Shown: positions 2,223-46,098 of the stretch, one piece after another
How positions within the stretch are numbered: the first letter of the stretch is position 1
How the letters are laid out: each line of letters begins with the position of its first letter
Assembly (NCBI RefSeq): GCF_004078635.1
Contig: NZ_RZNB01000001.1
Coordinates: 558,001-622,000 of the forward strand
DNA: 64,000 bases
Source of the DNA: Labedella phragmitis
GTDB lineage: Bacteria > Actinomycetota > Actinomycetes > Actinomycetales > Microbacteriaceae
Direction: 5' to 3'
Position numbers and translations under genes: made by a program
The notes under the pieces: generated by a model
The model's input: the letters and a program-made list of their open reading frames with translations, nothing else
What the model was told of the DNA's origin: nothing
Database searches by the model: none

Positions 2223-2719
2223 TCGCGGGTGCGCGGCGGCTCATCGGCGGCGTCGTCGGCGCCGTGCTCTCGGTCGTGCTCATCGGCGCCGGAATCGTGC
2301 TCGTCTTCGCGGACGCGCAGGACCGGCTCGCCGCCGCGACGCGCATCGCCATCCAGTCGGAGGCCCTCGACGAGGCGCCCGTGCTGACACCGCCGGAGAT
2401 CGTCGCCCGCACGATCGTCGTCGACTCGATCTCGCTCGACGGTCCGCTGCCGCGCTATTCCATCGTGTTCGTCGACGCAGCGGGTTTCCGCACGACGATC
2501 GACGACCCCGACGGACTCGTGTTCGTCGACGAGAGCGGGTACCAGTACGTCTCGTACGGATCGTTTGGCGGGATGGGCACGGGGTCGCCCGTCCCCCTGC
2601 CGAGGCCGTGGATCCCGCGGCTCGTCACCGGCGTCCTCGCTGCGGGTCTCGCTCTCGCCGTCGCGACGGGAGCCGGCCTCGCGCTCACGTGGTCGCCCCA
2701 ACGCCCGGCCCGACCGTGA
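2219..2719 (+). CDS. Small membrane protein, second copy of cassette gene B
   Basis: A 166-residue protein starting at ATG 2219, overlapping the upstream stop. It has an N-terminal membrane anchor, an extracytoplasmic domain with VDSISLDGPLPR and YGSFGGMG, then LPRPWIPRLV leading into a second membrane segment. These are the motifs of the products at 775 and 1230, with ~15 extra residues in the middle domain. It ends 18 bases before the convergent lipid kinase. Function unknown. Confidence 0.72.
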   Translation: MIAGARRLIGGVVGAVLSVVLIGAGIVLVFADAQDRLAAATRIAIQSEALDEAPVLTPPEIVARTIVVDSISLDGPLPRYSIVFVDAAGFRTTIDDPDGLVFVDESGYQYVSYGSFGGMGTGSPVPLPRPWIPRLVTGVLAAGLALAVATGAGLALTWSPQRPARP

Positions 2720-2737
2720 CTCCGGTCCCTGCGGTGG

Positions 2738-3727: not shown

Positions 3728-3761
3728 GAGGACAACCTACCCGGCGCATAGACTGGACCGC

Positions 3762-17706: not shown

Positions 17707-18573
17707 TCACCAGGAGACGTTCGAGTACCCCTTGAACGCCTCGCAACTGATCGCGACGGAATCGAGTTCAGCGCCCGGGGCGTAGTCCTGTTCGATCAGC
17801 ACGTATCGGAAGTTCGGAAGCCCGTCGACGGCGTCGATGATCTCCTGGATCGGAAGGATTCCGGTTCCGACCTCCGTGAACGTGTCAGGCGTCACGACCT
17901 GGTCGAACTCCGTCATGGTGATCGTCGCGTCGGGGGCGAGGACGCCGTCGAAGAGATTCAGCGGCTGTGCATGGCCGGACGGGAAGTCCTTCTGATGGAT
18001 CATGATGAACCGGTCGGGGTTCTCGCGGAACAGCCGGAGAGGGTCGGCGCCTCCGCGGTAGGCCCAGTAGGTGTCAAGCTCGAACTTCACGAGTTCCGGG
18101 TCCGTGTTCTCGAGGAGCAGGTCGTAGACCGTGCGATCGCCGAAGCGCTGGAACTCCTGGAAGTGGTTGTGGTAGAAGAACTCGATGCCGCGTTCGGCGC
18201 TCACTCGACCGATCTCATTGAAGAACTCCGCTCGTCTCTTCACGTAGTCGACGTCGCCGAACGGGTAGAACTCGAGGTCGCAACCGATACGGGTGTTGCC
18301 GATCCTCTCCTGGAAATCGAGGACCTGCGGGAGCCGGTCGAGATCCAGCGGATTGATCTGGCAACCGATGATCGACACCCCGCGGTCGCGCATGAGGTTG
18401 GCGAGAAAATCGGCAGGGATGCCGAAACCGATGCCGTCCTCGGTGAGCGCTCGATGGTTGGCTCCTTCGAAGCGGGTGAGGCCGAGGTCGGCGAGCGCGT
18501 TCAGTGTTCCTTCGGGGTCGGCGGCGAGAGAGTCGCGCACCGAGTAGAGCTGAATTCCGATTTCGACGGCCAT
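17707..18573 (-). CDS. Sugar phosphate isomerase/epimerase (xylose-isomerase-like TIM barrel)
   Basis: A 288-residue AP-endonuclease-2/xylose-isomerase-like TIM barrel. Family features are IGIQLYSVRDSLAADPEGTLNALADLGLTRFEGANH at the N-terminus, FFYHNHFQEF with the metal-binding region, KFELDTYWAYRGGADPLRLF and FIMIHQKDFPSG. Metal ligands would come from the Glu, Asp and His in these strands. It lies 69 bp after the TetR gene and downstream of a pyranose-oxidase-like gene on the same strand, suggesting it acts on an oxidised or keto sugar. The substrate is inferred from context only. Confidence 0.88.
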   Translation of the reverse strand: MAVEIGIQLYSVRDSLAADPEGTLNALADLGLTRFEGANHRALTEDGIGFGIPADFLANLMRDRGVSIIGCQINPLDLDRLPQVLDFQERIGNTRIGCDLEFYPFGDVDYVKRRAEFFNEIGRVSAERGIEFFYHNHFQEFQRFGDRTVYDLLLENTDPELVKFELDTYWAYRGGADPLRLFRENPDRFIMIHQKDFPSGHAQPLNLFDGVLAPDATITMTEFDQVVTPDTFTEVGTGILPIQEIIDAVDGLPNFRYVLIEQDYAPGAELDSVAISCEAFKGYSNVSW

Positions 18574-18642
18574 AACGGACCTTTCTGACTGAGGGGTGGG
18601 TGGAGTGCGGAAGAGACGTGATGCCGTTTTGCGAGTCGGCGC

Positions 18643-19242
18643 TCAGGCGCCGCGCCAACGGGCGATGAGCGCATCGAGATACCCGTCGAAAGCGGCGACG
18701 AGGTCGAACTCGCGGTCGAGCAGCCACTGCAACTGGAGGCCGTCCATCATGGCGCTGAGGCGGTGGGCCTCGGCGCGGGCCTCGGGGCCGGTCAACGCCG
18801 AGATCTGACCGGTCTCGGCGGCCCGGGCGATCTCCTCCTGGAGGCGGTCGGTGATGTGCCGGTACCGGTCGACGAAATAGTCGTGCGCCGGGTGGCCGGG
18901 CGCCGTCGCCTCGGCACTCAGAGTGATGAGGAATTCGACCCAGGCGGGGTTCTCGTGGCTGTACCGTATGCGTGCGCGGAGGGCGTCGACGTAGGGGAGC
19001 CCGGACAACTCCGTGTTCTCGACCTGAAGCGCATCCCATCGGTCGAGGACCGCCACGAGCAGGCCGTCCTTGCTGCCGAAGAGATTGATGATCTGCGATG
19101 CGGGCGCGTCGACGGCCTCGGCGATCATCCGGAGCGAGCCGCCACGGTATCCGCGCTCCCCGAAGACGTGGATCGCCGTCTCGACGAGGCGCCGGCGGGA
19201 CTCGACGCCGGACTTATAGGGGCCACGCGAGCCGTTCGTCAT
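18643..19242 (-). CDS. TetR-family transcriptional regulator
   Basis: A 199-residue repressor. The N-terminal helix-turn-helix spans residues ~13-60 (RRRLVETAIHVFGERGYRGGSLRMIAEAVDAPASQIINLFGSKDGLL), and the C-terminal ligand domain has the usual helical length. ATG 19242 overlaps the stop of the upstream oxidoreductase (ATGA), so it is co-translated with the enzyme it probably controls. The likely targets are its own operon and the divergent TIM-barrel gene at 20869. Inducer unknown. Confidence 0.9.
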   Translation of the reverse strand: MTNGSRGPYKSGVESRRRLVETAIHVFGERGYRGGSLRMIAEAVDAPASQIINLFGSKDGLLVAVLDRWDALQVENTELSGLPYVDALRARIRYSHENPAWVEFLITLSAEATAPGHPAHDYFVDRYRHITDRLQEEIARAAETGQISALTGPEARAEAHRLSAMMDGLQLQWLLDREFDLVAAFDGYLDALIARWRGA

Positions 19243-20753
19243 GCGAGCGCCCGCACCACGGCGGCCGCCGCGCGCACCGCCGTCGTCATGCCCGTGAGTG
19301 TCGAGTTGCACACGAGGGCGGTGGGGATGACGCCGTTCCCCGCGACGAACAGGTTGTCGAACCCCCAGACGCGGCAATCGAGATCGCAGACGCTCGTGCC
19401 GTCGTCGACGCGCCCCATCCTCACGGTGCCCGTGAGGTGCAGGGAGCCGCCGGCGCCGAGTACCGCCGACTGCGTCTCCGGATCGAAGTCGCCGAGGAGT
19501 CGGGCTGCCGCCGCCTGGTCGGCGCGTGCGAGCTCGAGGTTCGCGCGGTCGGCATCGGAGTACCGGAAGTGCACGGTGATCCGGGGCATCCCGGTGGCGT
19601 CGACCTCGTCGTCGGAGAACTCGAGCCGATTGTCACGTTGGATCTCCGTCCGGATGTAGTACTCGATGCCGACGCCGTAGCCGACCGGGCGCTTCTCGTC
19701 GTCGACGACGACCTTATTCATGAGGTGCACTTGGAACGGCTGTTCCGCGTCGCTGTGAGGGACCCAGAGGCAGTCGGACGCCCACTCGTGGTCGGTCGGC
19801 GGCTCGAGGGTCGTCAGGTCGAAACCGAGCCGATCGGGTGCCGCGTCGACGATCCCGGTGAGGAAGAAGTGCTCATTGAGGTAGCGGCCGAGGGCGTCGG
19901 GCCGGATTCCCGAAGCGAACAGGAGCTGTGGTGTGCGGACCGTGTCGGCACACACCACGACCTGACGGGCGTGGACTGTAGACAGCGCGCCCGTCTCGAT
20001 GTCGCGGCACTCCGCGCCGATGGCACGGCCGTTCTCGTGAAGGATCGACGTCGCGATCGTGTCGGGGACAAGCGTGAACCGTCCGTCGATCCCGGGTGCG
20101 CCGATCGGAGGGAAGATGACGAAGGGACTCGTCCGGATCTTGAGACCGGTCTCGTCGGCGTTGACGGCCATCGGCATGTCCTGCACACCGCGACCTGGTG
20201 CCGAGCGCGGGTCGAAGTGCGCGGCGAGGGCGCGCACCACGGCCGCACCCGCCTCGGTCTGCGGGTACGCCTCAGGGTTCACCCTGAGTAGCTGGGCGGC
20301 CCGGTTCAGGTCCTGTTCCCACTCGTCGGGCGCGATGTGGGGGTTGATCTCGCTGCCCCACGGGAACGGTGTTGCGGCAGTCCAGTGGATGCCCATGCCG
20401 CCGGCGTTCCAGGCGACGGAGGCGCTCGGCATCTCGTCGGCCGCCTCGCCGAGAGACGAGAGGTGGTACATCCCGGGCGTCACTCCCCGCATTGTGGCGC
20501 CAGTCTCGGCGGTCGGCGCGACGCCGGTGTAGAAGGCTTGGACCCCGGAGGCGACCCGCTTGTTGTACTGATCCCACACGTCCGGATCCGTGACGTCGTG
20601 CAGGTGCTGACCGGCAATGGGACCGACGTTCGGCCCGCCCGCGATCATCACGATCCGCGCATCCGGCCGTTGTTCGCGCACACATCGGGCGACCGCCGCG
20701 CCCATCAGGCCGCTTCCGACGATGAGCAGGTCGGCGGGTTCCGGGGTGTGCAT
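19239..20753 (-). CDS. GMC oxidoreductase, pyranose oxidase / glycoside 3-oxidase-like
   Basis: A 504-residue FAD enzyme. The N-terminal LLIVGSGLMGAAVARCV is the GxGxxG FAD-binding motif. GGMGIHWTAATP (residues ~130-141) strikingly resembles the pyranose 2-oxidase STHW flavinylation segment. The C-terminal LHLTGTVRMG and VCNSTLTGM supply the expected His and Asn catalytic pair. Such enzymes oxidise C2 or C3 of free or glycosidic sugars. No signal peptide is visible, so it is probably cytoplasmic. GAGGAG lies shortly before the ATG. The gene neighbourhood (two TIM barrels, TetR) fits 3-keto-glycoside metabolism; the substrate is not known. Confidence 0.88.
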   Translation of the reverse strand: MHTPEPADLLIVGSGLMGAAVARCVREQRPDARIVMIAGGPNVGPIAGQHLHDVTDPDVWDQYNKRVASGVQAFYTGVAPTAETGATMRGVTPGMYHLSSLGEAADEMPSASVAWNAGGMGIHWTAATPFPWGSEINPHIAPDEWEQDLNRAAQLLRVNPEAYPQTEAGAAVVRALAAHFDPRSAPGRGVQDMPMAVNADETGLKIRTSPFVIFPPIGAPGIDGRFTLVPDTIATSILHENGRAIGAECRDIETGALSTVHARQVVVCADTVRTPQLLFASGIRPDALGRYLNEHFFLTGIVDAAPDRLGFDLTTLEPPTDHEWASDCLWVPHSDAEQPFQVHLMNKVVVDDEKRPVGYGVGIEYYIRTEIQRDNRLEFSDDEVDATGMPRITVHFRYSDADRANLELARADQAAAARLLGDFDPETQSAVLGAGGSLHLTGTVRMGRVDDGTSVCDLDCRVWGFDNLFVAGNGVIPTALVCNSTLTGMTTAVRAAAAVVRALA

Positions 20754-20783
20754 GGGTCTCCTCGAGCAGGGCGATCAGTGGTG

Positions 20784-20825
20784 TTGACGTACCGCCGAGC
20801 GTACTCGTAATCTGAACACTCGTAA
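20784..20825. promoter_or_regulatory. Divergent promoter with repeated ACTCGTAA motif
   Basis: In the 115-bp gap between the oxidoreductase and the TIM-barrel gene, TTGACG (20784-20789) and TAATCT (20808-20813) form a -35/-10 pair with 18 bp spacing reading rightward. The direct repeat ACTCGTAA occurs at 20803-20810 and 20818-20825, overlapping the -10. It is a candidate operator for the TetR protein, although TetR sites are usually palindromic. Confidence 0.4.
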
Positions 20826-20868
20826 AGATTTCAGCGCACGGACGATGCAACACAGGCGAGGAGACACG

Positions 20869-21630
20869 ATGCTGATCAGCGCGAGCGAATGGGTCCTCGG
20901 GGACCGTCCCACCGCTCTCCGCCGAGCCCGCGCCGCGGGATTCGACGCGATCGAACTGGACGCGACCCCCGGCGTCGACGTCGATCGTCTGAAGCACGAG
21001 CTCACCGAGGCGGAGTTGAGCGTTCCGTCGCTCTGCTGGGCGTGGAACAGCGAAGACGAGCTCGGCTCTCCCGACGCCGATTCGCGCCGACGGGCGCAGC
21101 GGTACCTGCTCGGCTCCCTCGAGCTCGCCCACGAGCTCGGCGCGTCCCAGCTCGTCACGCTCCCGGCCTGTCGGAAGGTCGCCTGGACGCTCGACGAGAC
21201 GCGGATGCGCGGCATCGAGCGCGCTGCGGACTCCATCTCCGAGGTCCTCGCCGATGCACCGGCGGAGGTGTCCCTCGCGCTCGAGGGACTCCGCCGTGAG
21301 GAGAGCTTCCTCATGAACTCGCTGGCCGATGCGGACGTGCTGCGGTCGATGATCGACGACGATCGCGTCGGCCTCGTCGCCGACGTCTACCATCTCGCCT
21401 ACGAGGAACTCGACCCGATCGCCTCCCTGCAGCGGTTCGCGGACGTCATCACTCTGGTGCATCTCGCGGAGCCGACGCGGACGCCGCTCCTCGCGACCTC
21501 GCCGGGTGTCAGCGGCCTTGTGGACCAACTACGCGTGATGCCCGGAATCCGTTCGGCCACTCTCGAGTTCGAGGTGGGCGACGACGACGCGGCCCTCGCC
21601 GCGAGCGTCGTCTTCGCACGCACTCTCTGA
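20869..21630 (+). CDS. Sugar phosphate isomerase/epimerase-like TIM-barrel protein
   Basis: A 253-residue TIM barrel of the xylose-isomerase-like superfamily. MLISASEWVLGDRPTALRRARAAGFDAIELD is a typical first repeat; later strands include SLALEGLRRE, VGLVADVYHLAYEE and ITLVHLAEP, which supply candidate metal ligands (Glu, Asp, His). GAGGAG at 20858-20863 precedes ATG 20869 by 5 nt. It is divergent from the pyranose-oxidase-like gene and probably co-regulated with it by TetR. It is only distantly similar to the TIM barrel at 17707, so the two likely act at different steps. Confidence 0.8.
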   Translation: MLISASEWVLGDRPTALRRARAAGFDAIELDATPGVDVDRLKHELTEAELSVPSLCWAWNSEDELGSPDADSRRRAQRYLLGSLELAHELGASQLVTLPACRKVAWTLDETRMRGIERAADSISEVLADAPAEVSLALEGLRREESFLMNSLADADVLRSMIDDDRVGLVADVYHLAYEELDPIASLQRFADVITLVHLAEPTRTPLLATSPGVSGLVDQLRVMPGIRSATLEFEVGDDDAALAASVVFARTL

Positions 21631-21642: not shown

Positions 21643-23043
21643 TCACAACCCGCTCTGACCCGCGAGTTCGATCGCGATGTCGAAATCGGTGCGGTCGCGG
21701 GTGGAGTCGAGGCTCCTGCCCGTGATCTGCTCGATGACCTGTACGCGATGCCTCAGCGTGTTCGGGTGGATGTAGAGCTCGCTCGCAGCGACGCTCCACC
21801 GTCCGCCCGTCCGGAGGAACACCTCGAGCGTCTGCATCAGCTGACCGCCGCGCGCCGTGTCGTAGTCCCGGAGTGGCGCGAGCAGGGCCGTGGCCGTCTC
21901 CCGCATGAGTGCGGACGCTTGCGAGTACAGCACCGTCGACGGGCTGTTGAGCTCGTCGGCGCCGACGACGCTACCCGGTCCCGATCGCCGCGCTACCCCC
22001 AGCGCGTGCTCCGCCTGGATCAGGGACAGACGCAGACGGCCGGGACCGCCGGCGGATCCGACTCCCGCCGACGCTGTCCGAGGGAGCCCGCGAACCAGGC
22101 GGTCGACGACGTCCTCGCCGGAGACGCAGACGAGGACGGCGTCGTCGAAAGGGGCCGCGGCCACACGCTGGCCGGCGGCGCGGCGCGTCGCGAGGAGGAC
22201 CGCCTCCGGGTCCGGGTTCCAGATCGCCACGACGGCCAGCCCCTCGGCCTCCTCGACCCCGAGGGATCGAAGCCGCGCGAGCACCGACACCTCGTCCTGC
22301 TCGCCGCTGCGCAGCCACGTGAACAACTCGCGCGTGTAGCCGTCGACCGCTCGCCGCACCGAGCGGATCCGCTCGATCTCGAGGGCGATGAAGGGAACGC
22401 CGACGGACAGCACGGCGCGTTGCTCGACGCTGAAGGAGCCGGGCTCGACGGCGCTGAAGAGCTCGGCGTCGAGCACACCCTCGCTCAGCAGGGGTATCGA
22501 GTGCATGTCGTCGGTGGAGTGCACGCCGAAGGTCTCACGGTCGGCGACGAGACCGATGGGCGATGCGAGGCCGGCCGACAACGACTCGAGCATCGAGCCG
22601 AGGCTCCGGTCCTCCCGCAGAGCCGCGACGAAGGTCTCGTAGTAGTCGAGGTGACGCCGGAGGGGTCTCTCCCACACCCGGCGCTGCGCCTGGACGAAGG
22701 ACTTGATGATGCGCACGAACGGGACCTCGACGGGCACGAGGAACAGTGTGAGACCGGCGCGCTCGCAGGCGGAGACGAGGTGGGACGGCAGGTCGGTCAC
22801 CGTGCTCGTGAGCCCGAAGCCGAGGGCGAGCACCCCTGCATCGGCGAGGTCCCGGACGAAGGCGTCCGCCGACACGGCTGGCCACCATTGGCCGGACGTC
22901 AGGGCGACATCGCCAGCGGAGATGAACTCGGACGCCGGGAACCGGTCTATCGCGTGAACCCATTCGATGGGCGCGTCGAGGTTGCCGTGCACGGCCACCG
23001 TGAGCGACAGTCCGCGCTCGCGGAGGAGTTCACCGACTTTCAC
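21643..23043 (-). CDS. PucR-family transcriptional regulator
   Basis: A 466-residue activator-type regulator. The N-terminal PucR domain (VKVGELLRERGLSLTVAVHGN...WVHAIDRFPASEFISAGDVALTSGQWW) is the one found in purine-catabolism and related regulators. The C-terminal PucR helix-turn-helix has LMQTLEVFLRTGGRWSVAASELYIHPNTLRHRVQVIEQITGRSL. GTG 23043 is preceded by AAAGGAG on this strand. It lies ~300 bp from the divergent transporter-catabolic operon at 23351-32108 and is the probable regulator of it. Its effector is likely the transported nitrogen compound. Confidence 0.9.
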   Translation of the reverse strand: MKVGELLRERGLSLTVAVHGNLDAPIEWVHAIDRFPASEFISAGDVALTSGQWWPAVSADAFVRDLADAGVLALGFGLTSTVTDLPSHLVSACERAGLTLFLVPVEVPFVRIIKSFVQAQRRVWERPLRRHLDYYETFVAALREDRSLGSMLESLSAGLASPIGLVADRETFGVHSTDDMHSIPLLSEGVLDAELFSAVEPGSFSVEQRAVLSVGVPFIALEIERIRSVRRAVDGYTRELFTWLRSGEQDEVSVLARLRSLGVEEAEGLAVVAIWNPDPEAVLLATRRAAGQRVAAAPFDDAVLVCVSGEDVVDRLVRGLPRTASAGVGSAGGPGRLRLSLIQAEHALGVARRSGPGSVVGADELNSPSTVLYSQASALMRETATALLAPLRDYDTARGGQLMQTLEVFLRTGGRWSVAASELYIHPNTLRHRVQVIEQITGRSLDSTRDRTDFDIAIELAGQSGL

Positions 23044-23257
23044 GCGCTCTCCTTTCCATCCGGGATGCAGGCTCTCGAAACCTCCGGGAAACGCTTCGGG
23101 GCACCATGTGTAACGGCTCCGAAACAATGGTCCGCAAGTCGAGCGTCCCGTTGGAGGAATGACCAACCCCACGCCGCGAATCGGGCCATTCGTCCAATTC
23201 CGCGGCGGGACCGGCCTCAATCAGGATAGGCGGACCGGGCACACTGTCCCGTTGCAC

Positions 23258-23284
23258 CCGACGACCGACGACCGACGACCGACG
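23258..23284. repeat. Short 7-bp tandem repeat upstream of ABC operon
   Basis: CCGACGA is repeated three full times plus a partial CCGACG at 23258-23284, between the PucR gene and the transporter operon. It lies ~65 bp upstream of the lipoprotein start, so changes in repeat number could alter promoter spacing. Function is not known. Confidence 0.5.
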
Positions 23285-23350
23285 TCGGGTCCGCCGCACC
23301 GTCGGCACCCGCACCTCACCGGCATCTCCCGACATCCCGAAAGGTCCACC

Positions 23351-24436
23351 ATGATCCGACACCGCAAAGCGGTCATCGTGACGGCGTCCTCCCTCGCCGC
23401 CGCCCTCGCCCTCACGGCCTGCTCGTCCGACTCCGACTCCGGCTCCGGTGAGTCCGCGTCGGGCTCCGAGATCAGCGGAGAGGTCACGTTCGCCGGTTAC
23501 GGCGGCGCCGGCGGCGACAGCATCACGTCCGCATGGCTCGACCCGTTCTCGGAGGAGACCGGGGTCGACGCGATCCTCGACCCCTCCATGGACAACTCGA
23601 AGCTCCTCCAGATGATCGAGAGCGGCAACGTCACGTGGGACGTCGTCGAGGTCGGCCTCGACTTCGACCTCACCGAGGCGAACGACGGTCTGGTCGACAT
23701 CGACTGCGACGTCGTCGACTGCGCGGCGTTCGACGGGAACTGGGAGGTCACCGCCAAGGGCGTCCCCATGTTCATCTACTCGACCACCGTCGCGTACAAC
23801 ACGGATGCGTACAGCGAGGCCGACGCCCCGCAGGACTGGGCGGACTTCTTCGACACCGAGGCCTTCCCGGGCAAGCGGGCGATCAACTCGGCCGAGGGCT
23901 TCTTCGGTCTCGCCGAGGCGGCCCTCATCTCCGACGGCGTCGCCCGCGACGAGCTCTACCCCCTCGACATCGACCGCGCCCTCGAGATCATGGAGCCCGT
24001 CAAGGACGACATGATCTTCATCACGAGCGGGTCCGAGTGCATCGACCTCGTCACGTCCGGTGAGGCCTCGGTCGGTGCCTGCTACAACGGCCGGGTCACC
24101 CTCGCCGCCTCCGAGGGGCAGCCGATCGCGCAGTCCTGGAACCAGCAGATCCAGTCGGCCGACTACGTCGCCATCCCCGAAGGCAGCCAGAACGTCGACG
24201 CCGCCATGGCGCTCATCGCGTACCTCACGTCCACCGAGCACGCCGGCGAGATCGCGGACTACATCACTTACGGTCCGGGCAACCCCGCAGCCGAGGTGAG
24301 TGACGAGGCCGCGGCCGACGTTCCCACGGCGAACGAGGGCGACGGCGACGACGCCCCGATCGTCGCCGACTGGCAGTGGTGGAACGAGAACCGGGCCGAT
24401 GTGCTCGAGACGGTCTCCGAGTGGGTCGCGTCCTGA
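23351..24436 (+). CDS. Spermidine/putrescine-type ABC transporter substrate-binding lipoprotein
   Basis: A 361-residue lipoprotein with the lipobox ALTACSS near residue 22. The mature protein follows the PotD/PotF family: TFAGYGGAGGDSITSAWLDPFSEETGV, VTWDVVEVG, FIYSTTVAYNTDAYSEADAPQDWADFFDTEAFPGKRAIN and a C-terminal WWNENRADVLETVSEWVAS. The binding site is rich in acidic residues, consistent with a cationic ligand. A Ser/Gly/Asp-rich linker follows the lipobox. ATG 23351 gives a normal signal peptide. First gene of an eight-gene coupled operon. Confidence 0.93.
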   Translation: MIRHRKAVIVTASSLAAALALTACSSDSDSGSGESASGSEISGEVTFAGYGGAGGDSITSAWLDPFSEETGVDAILDPSMDNSKLLQMIESGNVTWDVVEVGLDFDLTEANDGLVDIDCDVVDCAAFDGNWEVTAKGVPMFIYSTTVAYNTDAYSEADAPQDWADFFDTEAFPGKRAINSAEGFFGLAEAALISDGVARDELYPLDIDRALEIMEPVKDDMIFITSGSECIDLVTSGEASVGACYNGRVTLAASEGQPIAQSWNQQIQSADYVAIPEGSQNVDAAMALIAYLTSTEHAGEIADYITYGPGNPAAEVSDEAAADVPTANEGDGDDAPIVADWQWWNENRADVLETVSEWVAS

Positions 24437-25284
24437 CCAACCAGGGAGGGGGCCGGCGCTGGTGGATCAGCGTCGGCCTCCTCGGCCTGCTCTTCGTCCT
24501 CCTCGCGCTCGTCGTGCCGCTCGCCGTGGTCGTGCAACGCAGCCTCGACGCGGGTTTCGACAACTTCGCCGACGCGCTCGCGTCCGCCTCGTTCATCCGG
24601 TCGCTCGGCAACACCGCGGTGCTCGCCGTCGGTGTGACGCTCTGCTCCGCCGTGATCGGCTACCCATACGCCTACGCCATGGCCCGCTCGGGTCGCGTGG
24701 TCTCGCGGATACTCCTCACGGCCCTCATGCTGTCGTTCTGGACGAGTCTTCTGGTCCGCAGTTACGCGTGGCAGGTGATCCTCAACGACACGGGCCTCGT
24801 CAACGAGGCGCTGCAGTTCCTCGGAGTGATCGACGAGCCCCTACAGCTCATCCGGACCCCGGCGGCGACGCTCATCGGTATGACGCACATCCTCGTCCCG
24901 TTCACCATCCTCGCGATCTTCGCCCAGCTGCGTGGGATCTCGCCGGACCTCGCGATCGCCGCCCGCGGTCTGGGTGCGACACGCACCCGTGCTTTCTGGA
25001 GCGTCACCTTCCCGCTGTCGCTGCCCGGTCTCGCGGCCGGCAGCCTGCTCGTGTTCGTCCTGACGCTCGGCTACTACGTGACCCCCCAGTTGCTCGGCGG
25101 CGCGGGCAACCCCGTGATCGGTCAGTCGATCGTCGAGCAGACCAATGCTCTCCTGAACACCGGGGTCGGATCGGCCATGGCCGTGATCCTGCTCCTGATC
25201 GTCGTGGTCATCCTGGGTGTGGCGGCCCGCTTCCTGGGTCTCGGCCGCGTGCTGGGACTCGCAACCGAGAGGAGCGACCGATGA
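24421..25284 (+). CDS. Polyamine-type ABC transporter permease (PotB-like)
   Basis: A 287-residue inner-membrane protein with about six membrane segments. The cytoplasmic EAA loop is LAIAARGLGATRTRAFWSVTFPLSLPGLAAGS. GTG 24421 overlaps the binding-protein stop by 16 bases, the only start that fits the first membrane segment (WWISVGLLGLLFVLLALVVPLAVVV). It pairs with the next gene to form the channel. Confidence 0.92.
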   Translation: MGRVLTNQGGGRRWWISVGLLGLLFVLLALVVPLAVVVQRSLDAGFDNFADALASASFIRSLGNTAVLAVGVTLCSAVIGYPYAYAMARSGRVVSRILLTALMLSFWTSLLVRSYAWQVILNDTGLVNEALQFLGVIDEPLQLIRTPAATLIGMTHILVPFTILAIFAQLRGISPDLAIAARGLGATRTRAFWSVTFPLSLPGLAAGSLLVFVLTLGYYVTPQLLGGAGNPVIGQSIVEQTNALLNTGVGSAMAVILLLIVVVILGVAARFLGLGRVLGLATERSDR

Positions 25285-26081
25285 AGACCGGACTCACCGT
25301 CCGCATCGTCGGCATCGTCATCGCCGTGCTGCTCGTCGTTCCGACGATCGTGATCTGCGCGACCGCGTTCACGAGCGGCTCCGCCGTCTCGTTCCCACCG
25401 CAGGGCTTCTCCCTGCGGTGGATCGAGGACGTCCTCGGGGACCGCCGCTGGACGCGCGCGTTCGGCAACTCGTTCGCCGTCGGCCTGCTCGCGGCCCTCT
25501 TCTCGATGGTCGCCGGAGCGGCGCTCGCCCTCGGCGCCGCCCGCGCCCGCGGGGCGATCGCATCGGTGTTCACCGCGATCTCGGTCCTGCCGATGATCGT
25601 TCCGCTCGTGGTCGGGGCCATCGGCTTCTACCTCGTGTACGCGCGGCTCGGCCTGACAGGGAACGTGCTCGGCCTCGCGCTCGCACACGGCGTGCTCGGA
25701 CTGCCGTACGTGTTCGTCAACGTCCTCGCTCTCCTGCGTACGCTGGACCCGCGCATCGAGGAGGCCGCGAGGGTTCACGGCGCCGGACATCTCACGACGC
25801 TCGCGACGGTCACGCTCCCGCTCCTCGCCCCCGCGACGGTCGTGGGAGGCCTCCTCGCCTTCGTCTCGTCGTGGGACGAGGTCGTCGTGGCGACGTTCCT
25901 GAGCGACGCGCGCTTCCAAACTCTCCCCGTGCTGATGTACAGCCAGATCCGATCGGGCGTCGAGCCCTCGGTGTCGGCCGTGTCGCTCATCGTCACCGTC
26001 GTGACGTTCGCCATCGCACTCGCCGTTTTCGCCGTCGGTCCCATCCGTGCCCGACTCGCCAGAAGGAGCTCGAGATTATGA
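25281..26081 (+). CDS. Polyamine-type ABC transporter permease (PotC-like)
   Basis: A 266-residue permease with six predicted membrane segments. The EAA motif is RIEEAARVHGAGHLTTLATVTLPLLAPATVVGG; FVSSWDEVVVATFLSD is the PotC-type signature (normally SFDDFVVS). ATG 25281 overlaps the PotB-like stop (ATGA). It forms a heterodimer with the 24421 product. Confidence 0.92.
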   Translation: MKTGLTVRIVGIVIAVLLVVPTIVICATAFTSGSAVSFPPQGFSLRWIEDVLGDRRWTRAFGNSFAVGLLAALFSMVAGAALALGAARARGAIASVFTAISVLPMIVPLVVGAIGFYLVYARLGLTGNVLGLALAHGVLGLPYVFVNVLALLRTLDPRIEEAARVHGAGHLTTLATVTLPLLAPATVVGGLLAFVSSWDEVVVATFLSDARFQTLPVLMYSQIRSGVEPSVSAVSLIVTVVTFAIALAVFAVGPIRARLARRSSRL

Positions 26082-27238
26082 GTCCGACAGCAACCGACAG
26101 AGCACCGGGCGCAGCGCTCGACGTGCGTTCCATCACCAAGCGATATGGCGACACGCCGGCCGTCGACGCCGTGAGCCTCGACATCCGGGCGGGCGAGTTC
26201 GTGACCCTCCTGGGCGCGTCGGGTTCCGGCAAGACGACACTCCTACGGATCATCGCGGGATTCGCGGACGCCGATGAGGGCTCGCTGCTCGTCGACGGTC
26301 AGGAGCTGCGCTCGGTGCCCGTCCATCGGCGCGACATCGGGATGGTGTTCCAGAACTACGCGCTCTTCCCTCACCTGAACGTGGAACAGAACGTCGCCTA
26401 CCCGCTCCGGATGCGCGGGATGCGCGGCCCCGAGCGCCGTCGGCGCGTCGCCGAGGCCCTCGAGGCCGTGCACCTGCCGACCTTCGGTCGTCGTCGGATC
26501 ACCGAACTCTCCGGGGGGCAGCAGCAGCGCGTCGCTCTTGCTCGAGCGATCGTCAGCCGTCCGCGGCTGCTGCTGATGGACGAACCCCTCGGTGCCCTCG
26601 ACCGCAACCTGCGCGATGCGCTGCAGCTCGAGATCAGCCGACTCAGTCGCGAGTTGGGCCTGACGGTCGTCAACGTGACGCACGACCAGGAGGAGGCCCT
26701 GACCATGAGCGATCGGATCGCCCTCCTCGATCGAGGTCGGCTCGTGCAATTCGCTACCCCCGACGACCTCTACCACCGTCCCGTCGACGACACGGCGGCC
26801 GCCTTCGTCGGAGAGTCGAACCTTTTCCGCGGGTCCGTCCGCGACGACGGAACGCTCGACGGCGCGGACGGCGTCGTCTTCTCCCCGCCGTCTCTCGTCG
26901 ACGGCTCCGCCGTCGGATCGGGACGCGTCGCCGTCATGGTGCGCCCCTCCCTGGTCCGGATCACCGCCGTCGGAAGCGCCCCGGAGGCGCACTCGCGCGT
27001 GGACGGCCGCGTCAGCGGAATCGTCTACGCCGGCGACTCCCGCAAGATCATCGTCACGACCGCCTCCGGCACCGAGCTGATCGCACGAGAGGACGCTGCC
27101 CGGCCGCTCGACGTGAGCGTCGAGCAGCCCGTCACCCTGCACTGGGACGCCCGGTCGTCCATCGTGACCCGACTCGCCGCAGGCTCCGCCGGAGCCACGG
27201 CCCCCGCCCCCGAGACCAGAAGGACAGCACGCGCGTGA
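26078..27238 (+). CDS. Polyamine-type ABC transporter ATP-binding protein (PotA-like)
   Basis: A 386-residue ATPase of the MalK/PotA class. Walker A is GASGSGKTTLL, the Q-loop MVFQNYALFPHLNV, the signature LSGGQQQRVALARA, Walker B LLLMDEPLGALD and the switch His VTHDQEEALTMSD. A C-terminal TOBE regulatory domain (from residue ~285) follows. All catalytic residues are present. ATG 26078 overlaps the previous stop. It powers import by the 23351-26081 components. Confidence 0.95.
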   Translation: MSPTATDRAPGAALDVRSITKRYGDTPAVDAVSLDIRAGEFVTLLGASGSGKTTLLRIIAGFADADEGSLLVDGQELRSVPVHRRDIGMVFQNYALFPHLNVEQNVAYPLRMRGMRGPERRRRVAEALEAVHLPTFGRRRITELSGGQQQRVALARAIVSRPRLLLMDEPLGALDRNLRDALQLEISRLSRELGLTVVNVTHDQEEALTMSDRIALLDRGRLVQFATPDDLYHRPVDDTAAAFVGESNLFRGSVRDDGTLDGADGVVFSPPSLVDGSAVGSGRVAVMVRPSLVRITAVGSAPEAHSRVDGRVSGIVYAGDSRKIIVTTASGTELIAREDAARPLDVSVEQPVTLHWDARSSIVTRLAAGSAGATAPAPETRRTARA

Positions 27239-28245
27239 ACAACATCATCGATTCCACCAAAGAGGTCGCCGACGGGCGCTTCCACGCCCTCATGGGGCCG
27301 GAGGCGTACCCCGCATTCCACGAGCTCGGCGAGCTGGAAGGGACATGGGGTCGACGCTGGGGAGCCGCCGACGAGGTGAGTCGCTTGCGATCCGTGCTGA
27401 TGCGTCGTCCGAGTGCCGGCCTCGGCGCCGTCCGTACCGACGCCTACGACGCGGACATGGACGCCTTCGTCGACCCCGACCGCCGCTGGTACTGGACGGG
27501 GTCAGACCTGCCCGACCTCGACGCCGTCGCCGAGCAGTACGAGGGCTTCGTCGCGGCTCTCGAGGCGGAGGGTGTCGAGATCGTGTTCGCACCCGAGCTG
27601 CCCGCCGACTACACGAAGGCCGTCTACACCCGCGACCCGCTCGTCACCGTTCCGGGCGGTGCCGTGATCGGGCGGCTCGCGCCGCGCATGCGTCGCGGAG
27701 AGGAGCAGTCGATCGCGGCGACGGTCGCCGCAGCGGGCATGCCGATCCTCGGAACCGTCACGGGATCGGGGCTCGCGGAGGGCGGGAGCTTCGTGAAGGT
27801 GCGTCGCGACCTCGCCTTCTACGGCTCCTCGGTGCGGTGCAATCCCGAAGGCGGCCGTCAACTCGCGCGCATCCTCGAACCGTTCGGCATCGAGGTGCAG
27901 CGTGTGAGCCTTCCCGGATATCTCATCCACCTCGACATGTGCTCCGTCATGCTCGACGACGACCTGGCTCTCGTGAACCCGCGACTCGCGCCCTACGACT
28001 ACATGTCGGCGCTGTGGGACCTCGGCATCGAGACGGTCGACGTGCACCCCGACGAGGAGTGGTCGACGAACCTGCTGGTCCTCGACAGGCGGCGCGTCAT
28101 CATGCCGGCACACCTCGAACGTACGGCGGAACTGCTCAACAGTCGCCACGGGGTCGAGGTGGTCCCCATCGAGTTCCGAGAGATGCTGAAGAACGGTGGC
28201 GGGCTGCACTGCTCGACGATGGAACTCCAGCGGGATTGGAGCTGA
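27235..28245 (+). CDS. Amidinotransferase/arginine-deiminase-superfamily protein
   Basis: A 336-residue member of the guanidino-group-modifying pentein superfamily. Landmarks are SVLMRRP, YTRDPLV (the R-D pair), GLAEGGSFVK (EGG motif), IHLDMCSVML, and the C-terminal GGGLHCSTM with the nucleophilic Cys at residue ~328 after the invariant Gly-rich turn. The EGGD Asp of classical deiminases is replaced by Ser, so substrate recognition may differ. Expected chemistry is hydrolysis or transfer on a guanidine, giving a ureido product. GTG 27235 overlaps the ATPase stop. Its place behind a cation importer suggests the imported compound carries a guanidino group. Confidence 0.85.
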   Translation: MNNIIDSTKEVADGRFHALMGPEAYPAFHELGELEGTWGRRWGAADEVSRLRSVLMRRPSAGLGAVRTDAYDADMDAFVDPDRRWYWTGSDLPDLDAVAEQYEGFVAALEAEGVEIVFAPELPADYTKAVYTRDPLVTVPGGAVIGRLAPRMRRGEEQSIAATVAAAGMPILGTVTGSGLAEGGSFVKVRRDLAFYGSSVRCNPEGGRQLARILEPFGIEVQRVSLPGYLIHLDMCSVMLDDDLALVNPRLAPYDYMSALWDLGIETVDVHPDEEWSTNLLVLDRRRVIMPAHLERTAELLNSRHGVEVVPIEFREMLKNGGGLHCSTMELQRDWS

Positions 28246-28252
28246 CGCCGCG

Positions 28253-29497
28253 ATGGACGCGTTCCTCGACGACTTCGCGACCATGTCGGCTTTCGGCGCC
28301 ACTCCGGGCGGAGGTGTCGAACGCCAGGCGGCGAGTGCCGCCGATGGCGAGAACCGCGCGTGGTTCACCGACTGGCTCGAGCGCAACGGCTTCGATGTCC
28401 GGGTCGACGCCATCGGCAACATCTTCGGACTGATCGAGCGGATCCCGGGCGCCCCTTACGTCGTCGTGGGTTCCCACCTCGACAGTCAGCCGCTCGCCGG
28501 GCGATTCGACGGGGCGTACGGCGTGCTCGCCGGTGCCCACGCGGTTCGGGCCGCCACTGGAGCCGAGGGTCCGGCCGTCTTCAACCTCGCCGTTGTCGAC
28601 TGGTTCAACGAGGAGGGCAGTCGGTTCAAGCCCAGCATGATGGGCAGTGCCGTGTTCACCGGAGGGCTTCCGCTCGAGGTGGCACTCGCGACGACCGATC
28701 CGACCGGAACGTCGGTGGCCGATGCGCTCGACACGATCGGTGGACGCGGAAAGGCCGCTCCCCTGGATGTGGCTGCGTACCTCGAGATCCACGTCGAGCA
28801 AGGACGAGAGCTCGAGGACACGGGAACCACCATCGGCCTCGTCGCCACGACATGGACGGCCCACAAGCTCGAGGTCGTCGTGCGCGGAGAGCAGTCGCAC
28901 ACCGGTGCGGCGCGGATGGCGGACCGGCGCGACGCCCTCTACGGGGCCGCGGAGCTGATCGTCGCGGTGCGTCGACTCATCGACGGCTTCGAACCCGAGG
29001 AACTGCACACGGCCGTCAGCGAGATGTACCTCGACCCGAACTCGCCCGTCGCCATCGCCCGCGAGGTACGGATGCTCGTGGACGTGCGTTCCCCGGACCG
29101 GTCGCTCCTCGAGACGGCGGTCGATCGGCTGCGGTCGGAGATGCGCGCGATCGAGGAACGCGCTCGGGTCGACATCGAGATCCGCGGTGTCGTCGAATGG
29201 TCGAGCGGTCCGTTCCTCGAAGAGGGGATTCTCCTGGCCGCTGCCGAAGCGGAGAGGCTCGGCTACAGCCACCGCCGTTCCGCCACCGTCGCGGGGCACG
29301 ACGCGACCAACATGAAGGAGATCGTCCCGACCGTGATGCTCTTCGTTCCGAGCGTCGACGGAATCTCCCACAACGAGCGGGAATTCACCTCCGACGCCGA
29401 CATGCTCGCCGGTCTCGACGTCCTCACCGCGGTGCTGGTCAGGGTCGCCGCGGGCGACCTCGACGCGGCCATCGGCGATATCGGGGAGGGGAGATGA
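28253..29497 (+). CDS. M20-family Zn-dependent amidohydrolase (allantoate/N-carbamoyl amino acid type)
   Basis: A 414-residue di-zinc hydrolase of the AllC/HyuC/AmaB group. Metal and active-site motifs are GSHLDSQPLAGRFDGAYGVLAG, NEEGSRF, HVEQGRELEDTG, GEQSHTGAARM (dimerisation domain) and AGHDATNM, with SVDGISHNEREFTS near the end. The family hydrolyses N-carbamoyl amino acids or allantoate to amine, CO2 and ammonia, which would be the step after a guanidino deiminase. ATG 28253 lies 8 bases after the previous stop. Its actual substrate is unknown. Confidence 0.9.
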   Translation: MDAFLDDFATMSAFGATPGGGVERQAASAADGENRAWFTDWLERNGFDVRVDAIGNIFGLIERIPGAPYVVVGSHLDSQPLAGRFDGAYGVLAGAHAVRAATGAEGPAVFNLAVVDWFNEEGSRFKPSMMGSAVFTGGLPLEVALATTDPTGTSVADALDTIGGRGKAAPLDVAAYLEIHVEQGRELEDTGTTIGLVATTWTAHKLEVVVRGEQSHTGAARMADRRDALYGAAELIVAVRRLIDGFEPEELHTAVSEMYLDPNSPVAIAREVRMLVDVRSPDRSLLETAVDRLRSEMRAIEERARVDIEIRGVVEWSSGPFLEEGILLAAAEAERLGYSHRRSATVAGHDATNMKEIVPTVMLFVPSVDGISHNEREFTSDADMLAGLDVLTAVLVRVAAGDLDAAIGDIGEGR

Positions 29498-31158
29498 CCC
29501 CCGCCATGGCTCGGACGGGTGGGGACGTCGCCGTCGAGACGCTGCGGGCGCTCGGGGTCGAGCGTCTCGTCGGGACGCCGGGACAGCACGCGCTCGGACT
29601 CTTCGACGCGTTGCGGCGCGGCGGAATCGAGCTGCTGCCCGCTCGCGTGGAGAACAACGCCGGCTTCATGGCGGACGGCCTCGCCCGGGTCGGTGGCACC
29701 GTCGCGCCCCTCCTGCTGTCGACCGGTCCCGGCGCGCTCACGTCTCTGCCGGCGCTCATGGAGGCGGCCGGTTCCTCCATCCCCGTGCTGGCACTGTCCG
29801 CACAGGTTCCCGTGAGCGGACTCGGTGGGGCGAGGCACGGGCATCTCCATGAGCTCGACGACCAGTCGGCGGTCTTCGCACAGGTTGTCAAGGGCAGCTG
29901 GACCGTGCGCACGGCCGTGCAGATACCGTCGGCGATCCGGTCGGCGTGGGAGCTCGCGGAGACGGCGCCGTGCGGTCCGGTCCTCGTGGAGATCCCCCAG
30001 GACATCCTTCTGGCCGAGGTCGGCGACACCGTACCCGTCGTCGTCGATGTCCGGTCGGAACCGCGCGCCGTCCGGGCGCGCGACGAATCGATCATCGCGG
30101 CAGCACGCGCCCTCGATGCCGCGACGCGACCCGTCGTGCTCGCGGGCGGGGGCGCGGCGCGTTCGGGAGCACGGATCGCACTCGAGCACGTCGCCGAGGC
30201 CATCGACGCGCCCGTCTTCTCGACCTTCAGTGGTCGTGACGCCATCGCGGCGTCGCACCCCCTCGCGGCCGGCAGCTGGCTCGAGGACATCGCCACGACG
30301 GAGTACCTCGAGAACGCGGACGTCCTCCTGGTCGTCGGCAGCGGACTCGGTGAATTGTCGAGCAACTACTTCACCCTGCGCCCGCGCGGGACCATCATCC
30401 AGATCGACGCCGACCTCGACGTCCTCGGAGCCAATCATCCGGTCCTCGCCCTCCACGGCGATGCGCGCGACGCTCTCGAGCGGATGGGAGACGCCCTCGA
30501 GTCGACGACCGAGGTGACGCGCCGAGCGACGCGGAGGGGAGAGATCACCGCCCTTCACGCGACGGTCGAGGCCCGCCTCGACGGGCAGGGCCTCGAGGCG
30601 GAACGGGCCATCATCGCAGCCATCCGCGACGCGCTGCCGGACGACGCCGACAGCTTCTGGGACATGACGATGATCGCGTACTGGGCCTGGTCGGCCTGGG
30701 ACGGGAGGGACGGGAGATTCGCCACGGCGCAAGGAGCGGGTGGCCTCGGCTACGCGTTTCCCGCGGCGGTCGGGGCGGCCTTCGCAGACCGGTCGCGTGC
30801 GGTGCTCGCCGTCTCGGGTGACGGCGGGGCGATGTACGGCATCTCGGAGCTCGGGACGAGCGTGCAGCTCGGCCTCGACGTCACCTGGCTCATCGTGGCC
30901 GACGGCGGTTACGGCATCCTCGAGGAGTACATGACGAGTGCCTTCGGAGTCGCGACCGCGACGTCCCTCGCGATGCCGGACTTCGTGGCGCTCGCCGCGT
31001 CCTTCGGCGTCTACGCGCGGTCCACGACGGTCGAGCGGCTGGCCGACGACCTCGCCGAGGCGCTCGCGACACCGGGGCCGTCGGTCGTGGTGCTCCCGCA
31101 ACGCATCGCCCTCTTCGCTCCGACGCATCTCGGCCGTCCGTCGGGTCCCGTCGCGTGA
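29494..31158 (+). CDS. ThDP-dependent enzyme, acetolactate synthase-like
   Basis: A 554-residue thiamine-diphosphate enzyme with three domains. The N-terminal Pyr domain has ARVENNAGFMADG, whose Glu aligns with the catalytic Glu of the family (usually R-H-E). The central domain has the Rossmann-like PVVLAGGGAARSG and VVGSGLGELSS. The C-terminal PP domain has VSGDGGAMYGISELGTSVQLGLDVTWLIVADGGYGI; the normal NN pair of the GDG-x(24-27)-NN motif reads AD, a clear deviation. It likely decarboxylates or ligates a 2-oxo acid. It is not glyoxylate carboligase-like, because the Glu is retained. ATG 29494 overlaps the previous stop. Confidence 0.88.
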   Translation: MTPAMARTGGDVAVETLRALGVERLVGTPGQHALGLFDALRRGGIELLPARVENNAGFMADGLARVGGTVAPLLLSTGPGALTSLPALMEAAGSSIPVLALSAQVPVSGLGGARHGHLHELDDQSAVFAQVVKGSWTVRTAVQIPSAIRSAWELAETAPCGPVLVEIPQDILLAEVGDTVPVVVDVRSEPRAVRARDESIIAAARALDAATRPVVLAGGGAARSGARIALEHVAEAIDAPVFSTFSGRDAIAASHPLAAGSWLEDIATTEYLENADVLLVVGSGLGELSSNYFTLRPRGTIIQIDADLDVLGANHPVLALHGDARDALERMGDALESTTEVTRRATRRGEITALHATVEARLDGQGLEAERAIIAAIRDALPDDADSFWDMTMIAYWAWSAWDGRDGRFATAQGAGGLGYAFPAAVGAAFADRSRAVLAVSGDGGAMYGISELGTSVQLGLDVTWLIVADGGYGILEEYMTSAFGVATATSLAMPDFVALAASFGVYARSTTVERLADDLAEALATPGPSVVVLPQRIALFAPTHLGRPSGPVA

Positions 31159-32108
31159 CGGCCGAGACCGACGAGCGTCCCGTCGTCGTCATGACCGAGA
31201 GCGGGGACGTCGACCCCGGGGCGGGGGTCGCGCTGCTCGAGCAGAACGGCTTCGAGGTCGTCGTGCTGACGGGCGCGCTCCCGCTCAGCAGTGGCTCCGC
31301 GCGGTCGGGCGGGGGATGGCGGAACGCGGTCGCCGCCATCATCGGCCTTGCCCCTTTCGGGGCCGCGGAGATGGATCGGCTCCCTGCCCTGCGACTCATC
31401 GCGACGACCTCGACGGGGGTCGACATGGTCGACGAGCGCGCGGCGGCGGAGCGCGGCATCGAGGTCGTCGGGCTCGGCGGCGTTGCGACCCGGGAGGTCG
31501 CGACGCACACGCTCGCGCTGATCCTCACCTCCTTGCGGGAGTTGCAGGCCGGGGTGGACGTGGTCCGCGGCGGCGGTTGGACCTCCGAGCTGACCGTCAC
31601 TCCGCCGGACGTCGGCCGGCTGGTGCTGGGCCTCGTCGGCTTCGGGCGGATCGCGCGGGAGACGGCCAGACTCGCCCGACCACTGTTCGAGCGCATCGTC
31701 GCAACGGACCCGTTCGTGACGGAATCGGAGAACGGCGTCGAGTTGATGGCCTTCGACACGCTGCTCGATGTCGCCGACGTGGTGTCCCTGCATCTTCCCG
31801 CGACCGCGGACACCCGCCGGCTCATCGGCGAGCGAGCCATGGCACGCCTGCGGCCGGGTGCACTGCTCGTGAACGCCTCCCGCGCCGAGATCGTCGATTC
31901 CGCAGCGGTCCTCGACGCGCTCGAATCAGGCCGAGTCTCGCGCTACGCCGCCGACGTCCTCGACGGCGAACCTCCCGCTGCCGACGATCCGCTGCGGTCG
32001 CACCCGCGCGCCATTGTCACACCGCACATGGGATTCTTGTCGACGAGCTCTCTCCAGCGCTACGAACTCGACCCGGCGAGGACGATCATCGAACGATTGG
32101 CCCGCTGA
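31155..32108 (+). CDS. D-2-hydroxyacid dehydrogenase (NAD-dependent)
   Basis: A 317-residue dehydrogenase of the glyoxylate/hydroxypyruvate reductase group. The Rossmann motif is LGLVGFGRIARETARLARPL (GxGxxA). Catalytic residues are Arg in NASRAEIVDS, Glu in DVLDGEPP, and His in VTPHMGFLS. It would interconvert a 2-oxo acid and a D-2-hydroxy acid, perhaps acting on the ThDP enzyme's substrate or product. GTG 31155 overlaps the preceding stop. Last gene of the operon, ending 11 bases from a convergent gene. Confidence 0.9.
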   Translation: MTAETDERPVVVMTESGDVDPGAGVALLEQNGFEVVVLTGALPLSSGSARSGGGWRNAVAAIIGLAPFGAAEMDRLPALRLIATTSTGVDMVDERAAAERGIEVVGLGGVATREVATHTLALILTSLRELQAGVDVVRGGGWTSELTVTPPDVGRLVLGLVGFGRIARETARLARPLFERIVATDPFVTESENGVELMAFDTLLDVADVVSLHLPATADTRRLIGERAMARLRPGALLVNASRAEIVDSAAVLDALESGRVSRYAADVLDGEPPAADDPLRSHPRAIVTPHMGFLSTSSLQRYELDPARTIIERLAR

Positions 32109-45900: not shown

Positions 45901-46098
45901 CGTCGTTCGAGCGGCCTCCCTCCGGATCGCGTGGAAACGGATGGTCGCCGATCGGTCGAGCGTCACGCTTCACAGGCGGGACACGCGTCGTTCACCGAAC
46001 GGTCGCGAGCGCGTCACGAGCAGCCCCGAAGGTTGCCTAGGGCACCCGTGTGGCGTCCCCATCCCCTGTCGAACTCAAGATTGGCTTGTGACTTCTTG

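Follow-up and report, generated by a model that had tools for sequence, protein, structure and literature searches.

A stretch of 64,000 nucleotides from Labedella phragmitis, referred to here as the window, contains at positions 23351–32108 eight plus-strand genes arranged as one tight operon, which encode an ATP-binding cassette (ABC) importer, a pentein hydrolase, an M20 amidohydrolase, a thiamine diphosphate (ThDP) enzyme and a D-2-hydroxyacid dehydrogenase. We propose, at roughly even odds (a probability of about 0.5), that this operon imports an arginine-like acid without an alpha-amino group and degrades it to gamma-aminobutyrate (GABA) without release of urea, the likeliest substrates being D-argininate (5-guanidino-2-hydroxypentanoate) and 2-ketoarginine. 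The first-pass annotation of the window had read the region as a catabolic guanidino or ureido operon with its own importer, and this general reading is supported; we infer the substrates, the direction of the dehydrogenase reaction and the order of the steps from the gene content, conservation, residues and co-occurrence described below.

In the proposed route, import of D-argininate or 2-ketoarginine would be followed by conversion of the D-2-hydroxy acid to the 2-oxo acid by the dehydrogenase and by decarboxylation of the 2-oxo acid to 4-guanidinobutanal by the ThDP enzyme; an aldehyde dehydrogenase encoded elsewhere would then yield 4-guanidinobutyrate. The pentein would turn the guanidino group into a ureido group plus ammonia, and the M20 enzyme would split the ureido group into amine, CO2 and ammonia, yielding GABA, which could pass to succinate through gabT/gabD-like genes elsewhere in the genome. 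An alternative order, in which the pentein and the M20 enzyme act first and the ThDP enzyme last, would lead to the same end product. The genes are as follows.

21643–23220, minus strand: PucR-family regulator with a PF07905 N-terminal domain and a PF13556 helix-turn-helix domain, divergent from the operon
23351–24436, plus strand: lipoprotein solute-binding protein, SBP_bac_8 (Pfam and PDB sequence matches; lipobox LTAC in the sequence)
24376–25284, plus strand: PotB-like ABC permease (NCBIfam), with a GTG start at 24376, 24379 or 24421
25281–26081, plus strand: PotC-like ABC permease (NCBIfam)
26078–27238, plus strand: PotA-like ABC ATPase (NCBIfam TIGR01187, 350.6 bits against a cut-off of 355.6)
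27235–28245, plus strand: pentein hydrolase of a distinct family (NCBIfam, Pfam and PDB sequence alignment), a proposed guanidino-acid deiminase
28253–29497, plus strand: M20 amidohydrolase of the hydantoinase/carbamoylase family (NCBIfam and PDB sequences), a proposed omega-ureido-acid carbamoylase
29494–31158, plus strand: ThDP enzyme (NCBIfam, Pfam and PDB sequences), a proposed decarboxylase of a 2-oxo-5-guanidino (or ureido or amino) acid
31155–32108, plus strand: D-2-hydroxyacid dehydrogenase (NCBIfam, Pfam and PDB sequences), proposed to convert a D-2-hydroxy acid to the 2-oxo acid

Families were assigned with NCBIfam and Pfam, and the binding protein and the four enzymes were also compared with PDB sequences; together these uphold the pentein, M20, ThDP and D-2-hydroxyacid dehydrogenase families that had been named in the first reading. 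All eight reading frames of the operon are open at these places, and neighbouring genes do overlap or abut at every junction, as had been claimed: five junctions overlap by 4 bp (PotB/PotC, PotC/PotA, PotA/pentein, M20/ThDP and ThDP/dehydrogenase), the binding-protein and PotB genes overlap by 16–61 bp depending on the choice of the PotB GTG start, and a 7-bp gap separates the pentein and M20 genes. The PucR-type gene is indeed divergent, and its first-listed start is a TTG codon that may sit upstream of the true start. PucR had also been taken as a hint of purine or ureide nitrogen, of which it says little; in the same genome a PucR-like gene with 30% identity to the window PucR (by tblastn) stands beside gabD-like and gabT genes (L107, 4274–8816). 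The importer genes are present as described, but the label 'polyamine-type' holds only at the superfamily level: all of the Pot equivalogs fall under their cut-offs (PotD 43.6 of 582 bits, PotB 152 of 348, PotC 132 of 326 and PotA 335 of 482), and the binding protein is nearest by sequence to GABA-binding-type proteins (PDB 9d57, 6dgv and 4eq7; 191–193 bits).

The pentein and its substrate pocket

The 27235 protein passes the Pfam ADI model PF02274 with 43.5 bits against a gathering score of 22.8, which places it in the pentein superfamily, where by its sequence it is a distinct family. Its identification as arginine deiminase (ArcA) was rejected on scores of 29.3 of 489.1 bits (TIGR01078) and 35.9 of 414 bits (PRK01388), and its identification as dimethylargininase (DDAH) on a score of 81.2 of 340 bits and on a lysine in place of the alpha-amino-binding aspartate in every family member. 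Alignment with Pseudomonas aeruginosa DDAH (PDB 3rhy; E 5e-18) brings the catalytic residues into register, with Asp66, Arg85, Arg132, His162 and Cys249 of 3rhy aligned to D134, R153, R201, H232 and C326 of the window pentein, whereas the position of 3rhy Asp60 is occupied by K128. We had considered R147 as the carboxylate clamp and discarded it, as this alignment puts the clamp at R153. For human DDAH1, an excerpt of one published account has Asp73 binding the alpha-amino group of the ligand and lying six residues before the guanidine-binding Asp79 (PMC10958460), and a portion of another names Asp73, Arg98 and Arg145 among the pocket residues (PMC9980740).

The pocket is strictly conserved: K128, D134, R153, E182, R201, H232 and D234 are invariant in all 39 members of the pentein family, which includes both of the carboxylate-binding arginines (R153 and R201), and C326 is present in all 38 members whose sequence extends to that site. 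In a tblastn control of 40 other pentein loci (L004–L043; an earlier control had used 11 hand-picked relatives), the site matching K128 is Asp in 22, Asn in two, Lys in three and Ile in one, and is not readable in 12 (a gap, not covered or no hit). Among four remoter plasmid-borne homologues Lys is found at this site in three, the Thermomicrobium protein having His.

A lysine at the alpha-amino site is expected to be repulsive to an alpha-ammonium group and to prefer a carboxylate or a keto or hydroxy oxygen. As all 39 members carry this lysine, the pentein is unlikely to use arginine itself, and because the two carboxylate-binding arginines are likewise kept throughout, agmatine is unlikely too. 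Both compounds had been listed as candidates in the first-pass annotation; guanidinobutyrate, also on that list, comes nearest to the reading that we favour, with 4-guanidinobutyrate as an intermediate. We propose that the pentein acts on 4-guanidinobutyrate or on 2-oxo or 2-hydroxy arginine.

Recurrence of the operon and its enzymes

The pentein is uncommon, being found in 12 of the 398 genomes searched in the bacterial family at E 1e-22, the window genome included, and in 14 of 394 genomes of the class at E 1e-25, namely the window genome and 13 remote relatives with 33–37% identity; the nearest named relative at the locus is Labedella populi, with a pentein 97% identical. A scan of a genome collection by two peptide patterns, which may miss records near the window genome, gave at least 38 pentein loci, spanning Labedella, Microbacterium, Cryobacterium, Pseudoclavibacter, Pseudactinotalea, Agrococcus, Homoserinimonas, Nonomuraea, Microtetraspora, Rhodococcus, Brevibacterium, Conexibacter, Vreelandella and metagenome-assembled genomes. 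The presence of other genes at these loci was scored by tblastn at 85 bits or more, gene calls in the relatives (from composition and homology) having missed or misplaced some genes; for the dehydrogenase count three query proteins were used, two of them taken from loci L081 and L094 themselves.

That the four enzyme types should occur together in other genomes had been put forward as a check on the first reading, and they do. An M20 match is present in 25 of the 38 loci, 21 of them close (at least 54% identity to the window M20; L090 is cut by a contig end) and four remote (L094–L097); the ThDP enzyme is present in 16 and the D-2-hydroxyacid dehydrogenase in 14. The dehydrogenase accompanies the ThDP enzyme in 13 of the 16 loci, and is absent from L073 (a 5-kb contig), L093 (where the contig ends 4.3 kb off) and the remote L099. 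Two Labedella and two Microbacterium records (L064–L067) contain the complete operon, and Microbacterium L071 and L072 have the order SBP_bac_3-type binding protein, permease, ATPase, ThDP enzyme, pentein, M20, dehydrogenase. The window genome (3.52 Mb) contains two M20 and five ThDP homologues (both at E up to 0.001) and four dehydrogenase homologues (E up to 1e-15), and we estimate from such genome counts that the chance of finding one in a given 21-kb stretch is about 1–3%. The grouping exceeds chance, both in that the operon recurs as a whole and in that its types of enzyme are also found together with different transporters. On a quick pentein tree (38 rows, comprising the window and 37 loci, with the truncated L098 left out and long-branch warnings for L099, L081, L100, L092 and L074) there are at least six changes in the ThDP state, so the association has been gained or lost repeatedly; the number of changes is inflated by loci on cut or short contigs, such as L090, L100 and L101, that were scored as lacking the ThDP enzyme.

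The pentein and M20 genes are found without the ThDP enzyme and the dehydrogenase in L068–L070, L074, L082 and L088 (L069 and L082 being cut about 5 kb to the right), which suggests that the pentein and M20 form the core of the system and the 2-oxo-acid part a feeder. Since such loci exist, the 2-oxo-acid enzymes are likelier to precede the pentein and M20 in the pathway, or to work alongside them, than to follow them; the order first suggested for the operon, from guanidine to ureide to amine and only then to 2-oxo-acid chemistry, is for this reason disfavoured, with the reservation that some of the contigs are cut.

The window M20 enzyme is over the cut-off of the hydantoinase/carbamoylase amidase family TIGR01879 (287.3 bits, cut-off 204) and of the PRK09290.2-1 'allantoate amidohydrolase' subfamily (439.3 bits, cut-off 424), but under that of the AllC equivalog TIGR03176 (179.7 bits, cut-off 597.75). 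In a residue alignment of 26 M20 rows (L090, a short match, was left out), one site aligns with an asparagine that we take to be part of the Asn/Arg carboxylate-binding pair of characterised members; this site is Val in all 22 window-type rows, Asn in L094 and Thr in L095–L097. The dehydrogenase aligns with PDB sequences at the Arg, Glu and His of the D-2-hydroxyacid dehydrogenase family, presumably the functional residues of that family.

The window ThDP enzyme has PRK08266 as its best family (338 of 571 bits) and PRK07524, the AruI-type 5-guanidino-2-oxopentanoate decarboxylase, as its second (314.2 of 500), and as it lies below both cut-offs and nearer to PRK08266, its substrate is argued from its neighbours. 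Eight ThDP proteins from these loci were scanned, and PRK07524 is the best family for four: L072 (500.8 bits), L071 (489.0), L062 (463.4; very likely the same contig as L093) and L080 (448.4), only the first of which exceeds the cut-off of 500; those of the window, L073, L075 and L081 fit PRK08266 better. In L071 and L072 the PRK07524 score stands 138–142 bits above that of the next family, and the occurrence there of an AruI-like ThDP enzyme together with the pentein, M20 and the same dehydrogenase family is our main reason for reading the window protein as a probable 2-oxo-guanidino-acid decarboxylase. We also considered glyoxylate carboligase, which has a Val at the site of the catalytic Glu; the window enzyme retains the Glu in alignment with PDB sequences, and this identity is disfavoured.

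The fullest of the loci, L080 of Pseudactinotalea suaedae, has the pentein, M20, an AruI-like ThDP enzyme (448 bits), an aldehyde dehydrogenase, a Pot-type importer and a PucR gene, as well as an XRE-cupin-like regulator (by tblastn) and a D-2-hydroxyacid dehydrogenase whose gene is truncated where the stretch ends. Next to this set lie genes for a GABA transaminase, which at 573 bits passes its cut-off of 506.65, and for a succinate-semialdehyde-dehydrogenase-like protein, which at 536 bits is under its cut-off of 646; the locus can be read as a putative complete path that takes a C5 2-hydroxy-5-guanidino acid via GABA to succinate. The window genome also has a GABA transaminase over its cut-off, beside a gabD-like gene.

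Four transporter types stand beside the pentein set across the 38 loci (by tblastn): a PotABCD-type binding protein in six, NCS1 in five, an MFS metabolite:H+ symporter in eight, and the polar-amino-acid ABC type, with SBP_bac_3 matches in 14, some of them weak or far from the pentein. An agmatinase-family gene follows M20 in all five Pseudoclavibacter loci L075–L079 (by tblastn), the copy in L060, also Pseudoclavibacter, scoring 302.7 bits with PRK02190 (cut-off 302), and PF04371 deiminase-type genes lie near the set in L082 (Pfam) and L074 (tblastn); we count both kinds of neighbour in favour of the proposed route. L068, L069, L070 and L088 carry a SnoaL-like protein and an XRE-cupin regulator and have no ThDP match. 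Remoter penteins are encoded in L094, L110 (Kozakia baliensis plasmid pKB16680_2) and L111, near M20, polysaccharide-deacetylase-annotated, class II aldolase or ABC transporter genes. In Nonomuraea (L083, 1401–6038, and equivalents in L084–L087) there is a row of genes for an MFS symporter, the pentein, a urease gamma/beta fusion and a divergent alpha chain of urease; the last keeps the motifs that are presumably the metal ligands, and what we take to be its flap motif is VHR in five of five, against CHH in H. pylori. At least one further, higher-scoring urease alpha is found elsewhere in all four Nonomuraea genomes searched, in which no M20 is more than 37% identical, and the urease paralogue may replace M20 there.

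The window region 17707–21630 contains two TIM-barrel genes (AP_endonuc_2; the 17707 copy is below the gathering score), a gene that by eye resembles TetR and a GMC oxidoreductase. The TIM-barrel gene at 20845–21630 and the GMC gene were not taken to be pathway members, with matches only in L064–L067 and none in the other 34 of the 38 loci; the best PucR segments in L064–L067 are 70–89% identical. L065 and L066 have an M20 peptidase with a dimerisation domain between the TIM barrel and PucR (at about 2500–4430), with a cluster-mate in L067; in the window, unlike these, the corresponding interval is too short to hold such a gene. At 45931–48984 the window encodes a 1017-residue protein with CBM6, purple acid phosphatase N-terminal, metallophosphoesterase and surface immunoglobulin-like domains.

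Competing explanations

Several observations weigh against a route from D-argininate or 2-ketoarginine to GABA. L031, a sound relative outside the pentein family, also has Lys at the alpha-amino site (the other two Lys in the control are from hits below 30 bits), and the remote Shinella pentein (L111) keeps the Lys but has Ala at R201; moreover, Lys128 would suit 4-guanidinobutyrate, 2-ketoarginine or a diacid equally. The window ThDP enzyme is under the curated cut-offs and closer to PRK08266, a family of unknown function. The window operon has no aldehyde dehydrogenase, and matches of the L080 type are found in two of the 38 loci (L074 and L080); a GABA transaminase is found in one of the 38, L080, where it comes with its own PucR gene, and this link, as a single observation, may be chance, a gabT/gabD/PucR-like group also standing alone, as in the window genome. 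In L068, L069, L070 and L088 the pentein and M20 are accompanied by a permease of the NCS1 type and a cyclase (PF04199), which suggests that these loci handle a different, perhaps cyclic, substrate, and Vreelandella L094, Kozakia L110 and Shinella L111 have a class II aldolase gene in the neighbourhood of the pentein; both types of loci hint that the wider pentein family includes members with other substrates.

The pentein and M20 might instead act on a short or branched guanidino acid, such as 3-guanidinopropionate, guanidinoacetate or guanidinosuccinate, which would yield beta-alanine, glycine or aspartate, with the ThDP enzyme and the dehydrogenase processing the carbon skeleton afterwards, in the order given in the first-pass annotation. 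Among M20 relatives of solved structure are beta-alanine synthases and carbamoyl-amino-acid hydrolases, a cyclic acylguanidine precursor with a six- or five-membered ring would fit the loci with NCS1 and cyclase genes, and Lys128 with the two arginines would also suit a diacid. We nonetheless consider such an acid unlikely: the Asn of classical carbamoylases is Val in all of the window-type M20 rows, the residues that bind the guanidine and carboxylate groups line up with their DDAH counterparts and suit a substrate of arginine length, and the sole locus with amino-acid-end genes, L080, carries those for GABA. A purine-ureide route would be suited by the PucR regulator, by the NCS1 permease and ring-opening-type cyclase of some loci, by the M20 score over the allantoate amidohydrolase subfamily cut-off (439 of 424 bits) and by a weak hydroxypyruvate-isomerase match of the adjoining TIM barrel (27.5 of 353 bits); the pentein would convert 5-guanidinohydantoin, from oxidised guanine, to allantoin, M20 would carry out ring opening and decarbamoylation, and glyoxylate would go to the ThDP enzyme, acting as a carboligase, and to the dehydrogenase. 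This we find quite improbable, given the catalytic Glu of the ThDP enzyme, the scores of its AruI-like replacements (which reach 489 and 501 bits with the 2-ketoarginine model and 180 and 187 with that for the carboligase) and the AllC score of 180 of 598 bits; it would also leave the aldehyde dehydrogenase and GABA genes of L080 unexplained and offer no carboxylate to the two conserved arginines.

Direct import of arginine or agmatine, with the pentein as arginine or agmatine deiminase, would be in keeping with the pentein fold and with the binding protein of L060 (Pseudoclavibacter), whose best ABC model is of the lysine/arginine/ornithine type, although below the cut-off (112 of 256 bits). 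It is very improbable in view of the arginine deiminase equivalog score (29 against 489 bits), the Lys in the alpha-amino pocket and the carboxylate-binding arginines, for which agmatine would have no use, and the eight operon genes include neither ornithine carbamoyltransferase nor carbamate kinase.

Comparison with known systems

A search of the open-access literature found no guanidinobutyrate or ureidobutyrate deiminase, no argininate catabolism and no pathway with this gene set, which within that scope agrees with the earlier remark that no characterised pathway has exactly this set. We hold with moderate confidence that the operon is a new variant of arginine/guanidinobutyrate catabolism. 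A wider picture is offered tentatively, as less probable than not: an undescribed pathway in several actinobacterial lineages that would lead from argininate, 2-ketoarginine and 4-guanidinobutyrate to GABA without urea, through a new Lys-pocket pentein guanidino-acid deiminase whose family reaches the proteobacteria, with carbamoyl hydrolysis by M20 in most lineages and by a re-purposed urease paralogue in Nonomuraea. If true, this would add a urea-free branch to arginine/guanidinobutyrate catabolism and give a testable function to 'arginine deiminase family' proteins of Actinomycetota and, more remotely, of proteobacterial plasmids; it also suggests a simple residue rule for reading pentein substrates (Asp/Asn to Lys), and draws attention to a urease paralogue with possible activity on substituted ureas.

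The window pentein shares its superfamily and aligned catalytic residues with DDAH and arginine deiminase, but differs from them in the Lys at the alpha-amino position and in equivalog scores far under the cut-offs. Similarly, the M20 enzyme is over the TIGR01879 cut-off, like the allantoate and N-carbamoyl amino acid amidohydrolases, and departs from them in the Val that replaces the Asn of the carboxylate pair. The proposed pairing, in which a pentein makes a ureido compound and a second hydrolase frees the amine, resembles that of AguA and AguB (agmatine deiminase and N-carbamoylputrescine amidase), although the pentein is of another family, with carboxylate-binding arginines, and the second hydrolase is an M20 enzyme; M20 enzymes are metalloenzymes, whereas the amidase on the AguB side is of the nitrilase type.

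In the Pseudomonas arginine transaminase/oxidase route (AruH/AruI, KauB and GbuA), arginine is converted to 2-ketoarginine, 4-guanidinobutyrate and GABA. The part of a published description that bears on the steps from 2-ketoarginine through guanidinobutyrate to GABA has them releasing urea (PMC2242806). The operon described here is like the Aru route in the 2-ketoarginine-type ThDP decarboxylase of its sister loci and in having GABA as the likely end product. It differs in that the window operon has a D-2-hydroxyacid dehydrogenase and no transaminase or oxidase, and in that there is no ureohydrolase among its eight genes, so that a deiminase and a carbamoylase would replace guanidinobutyrase, without urea.

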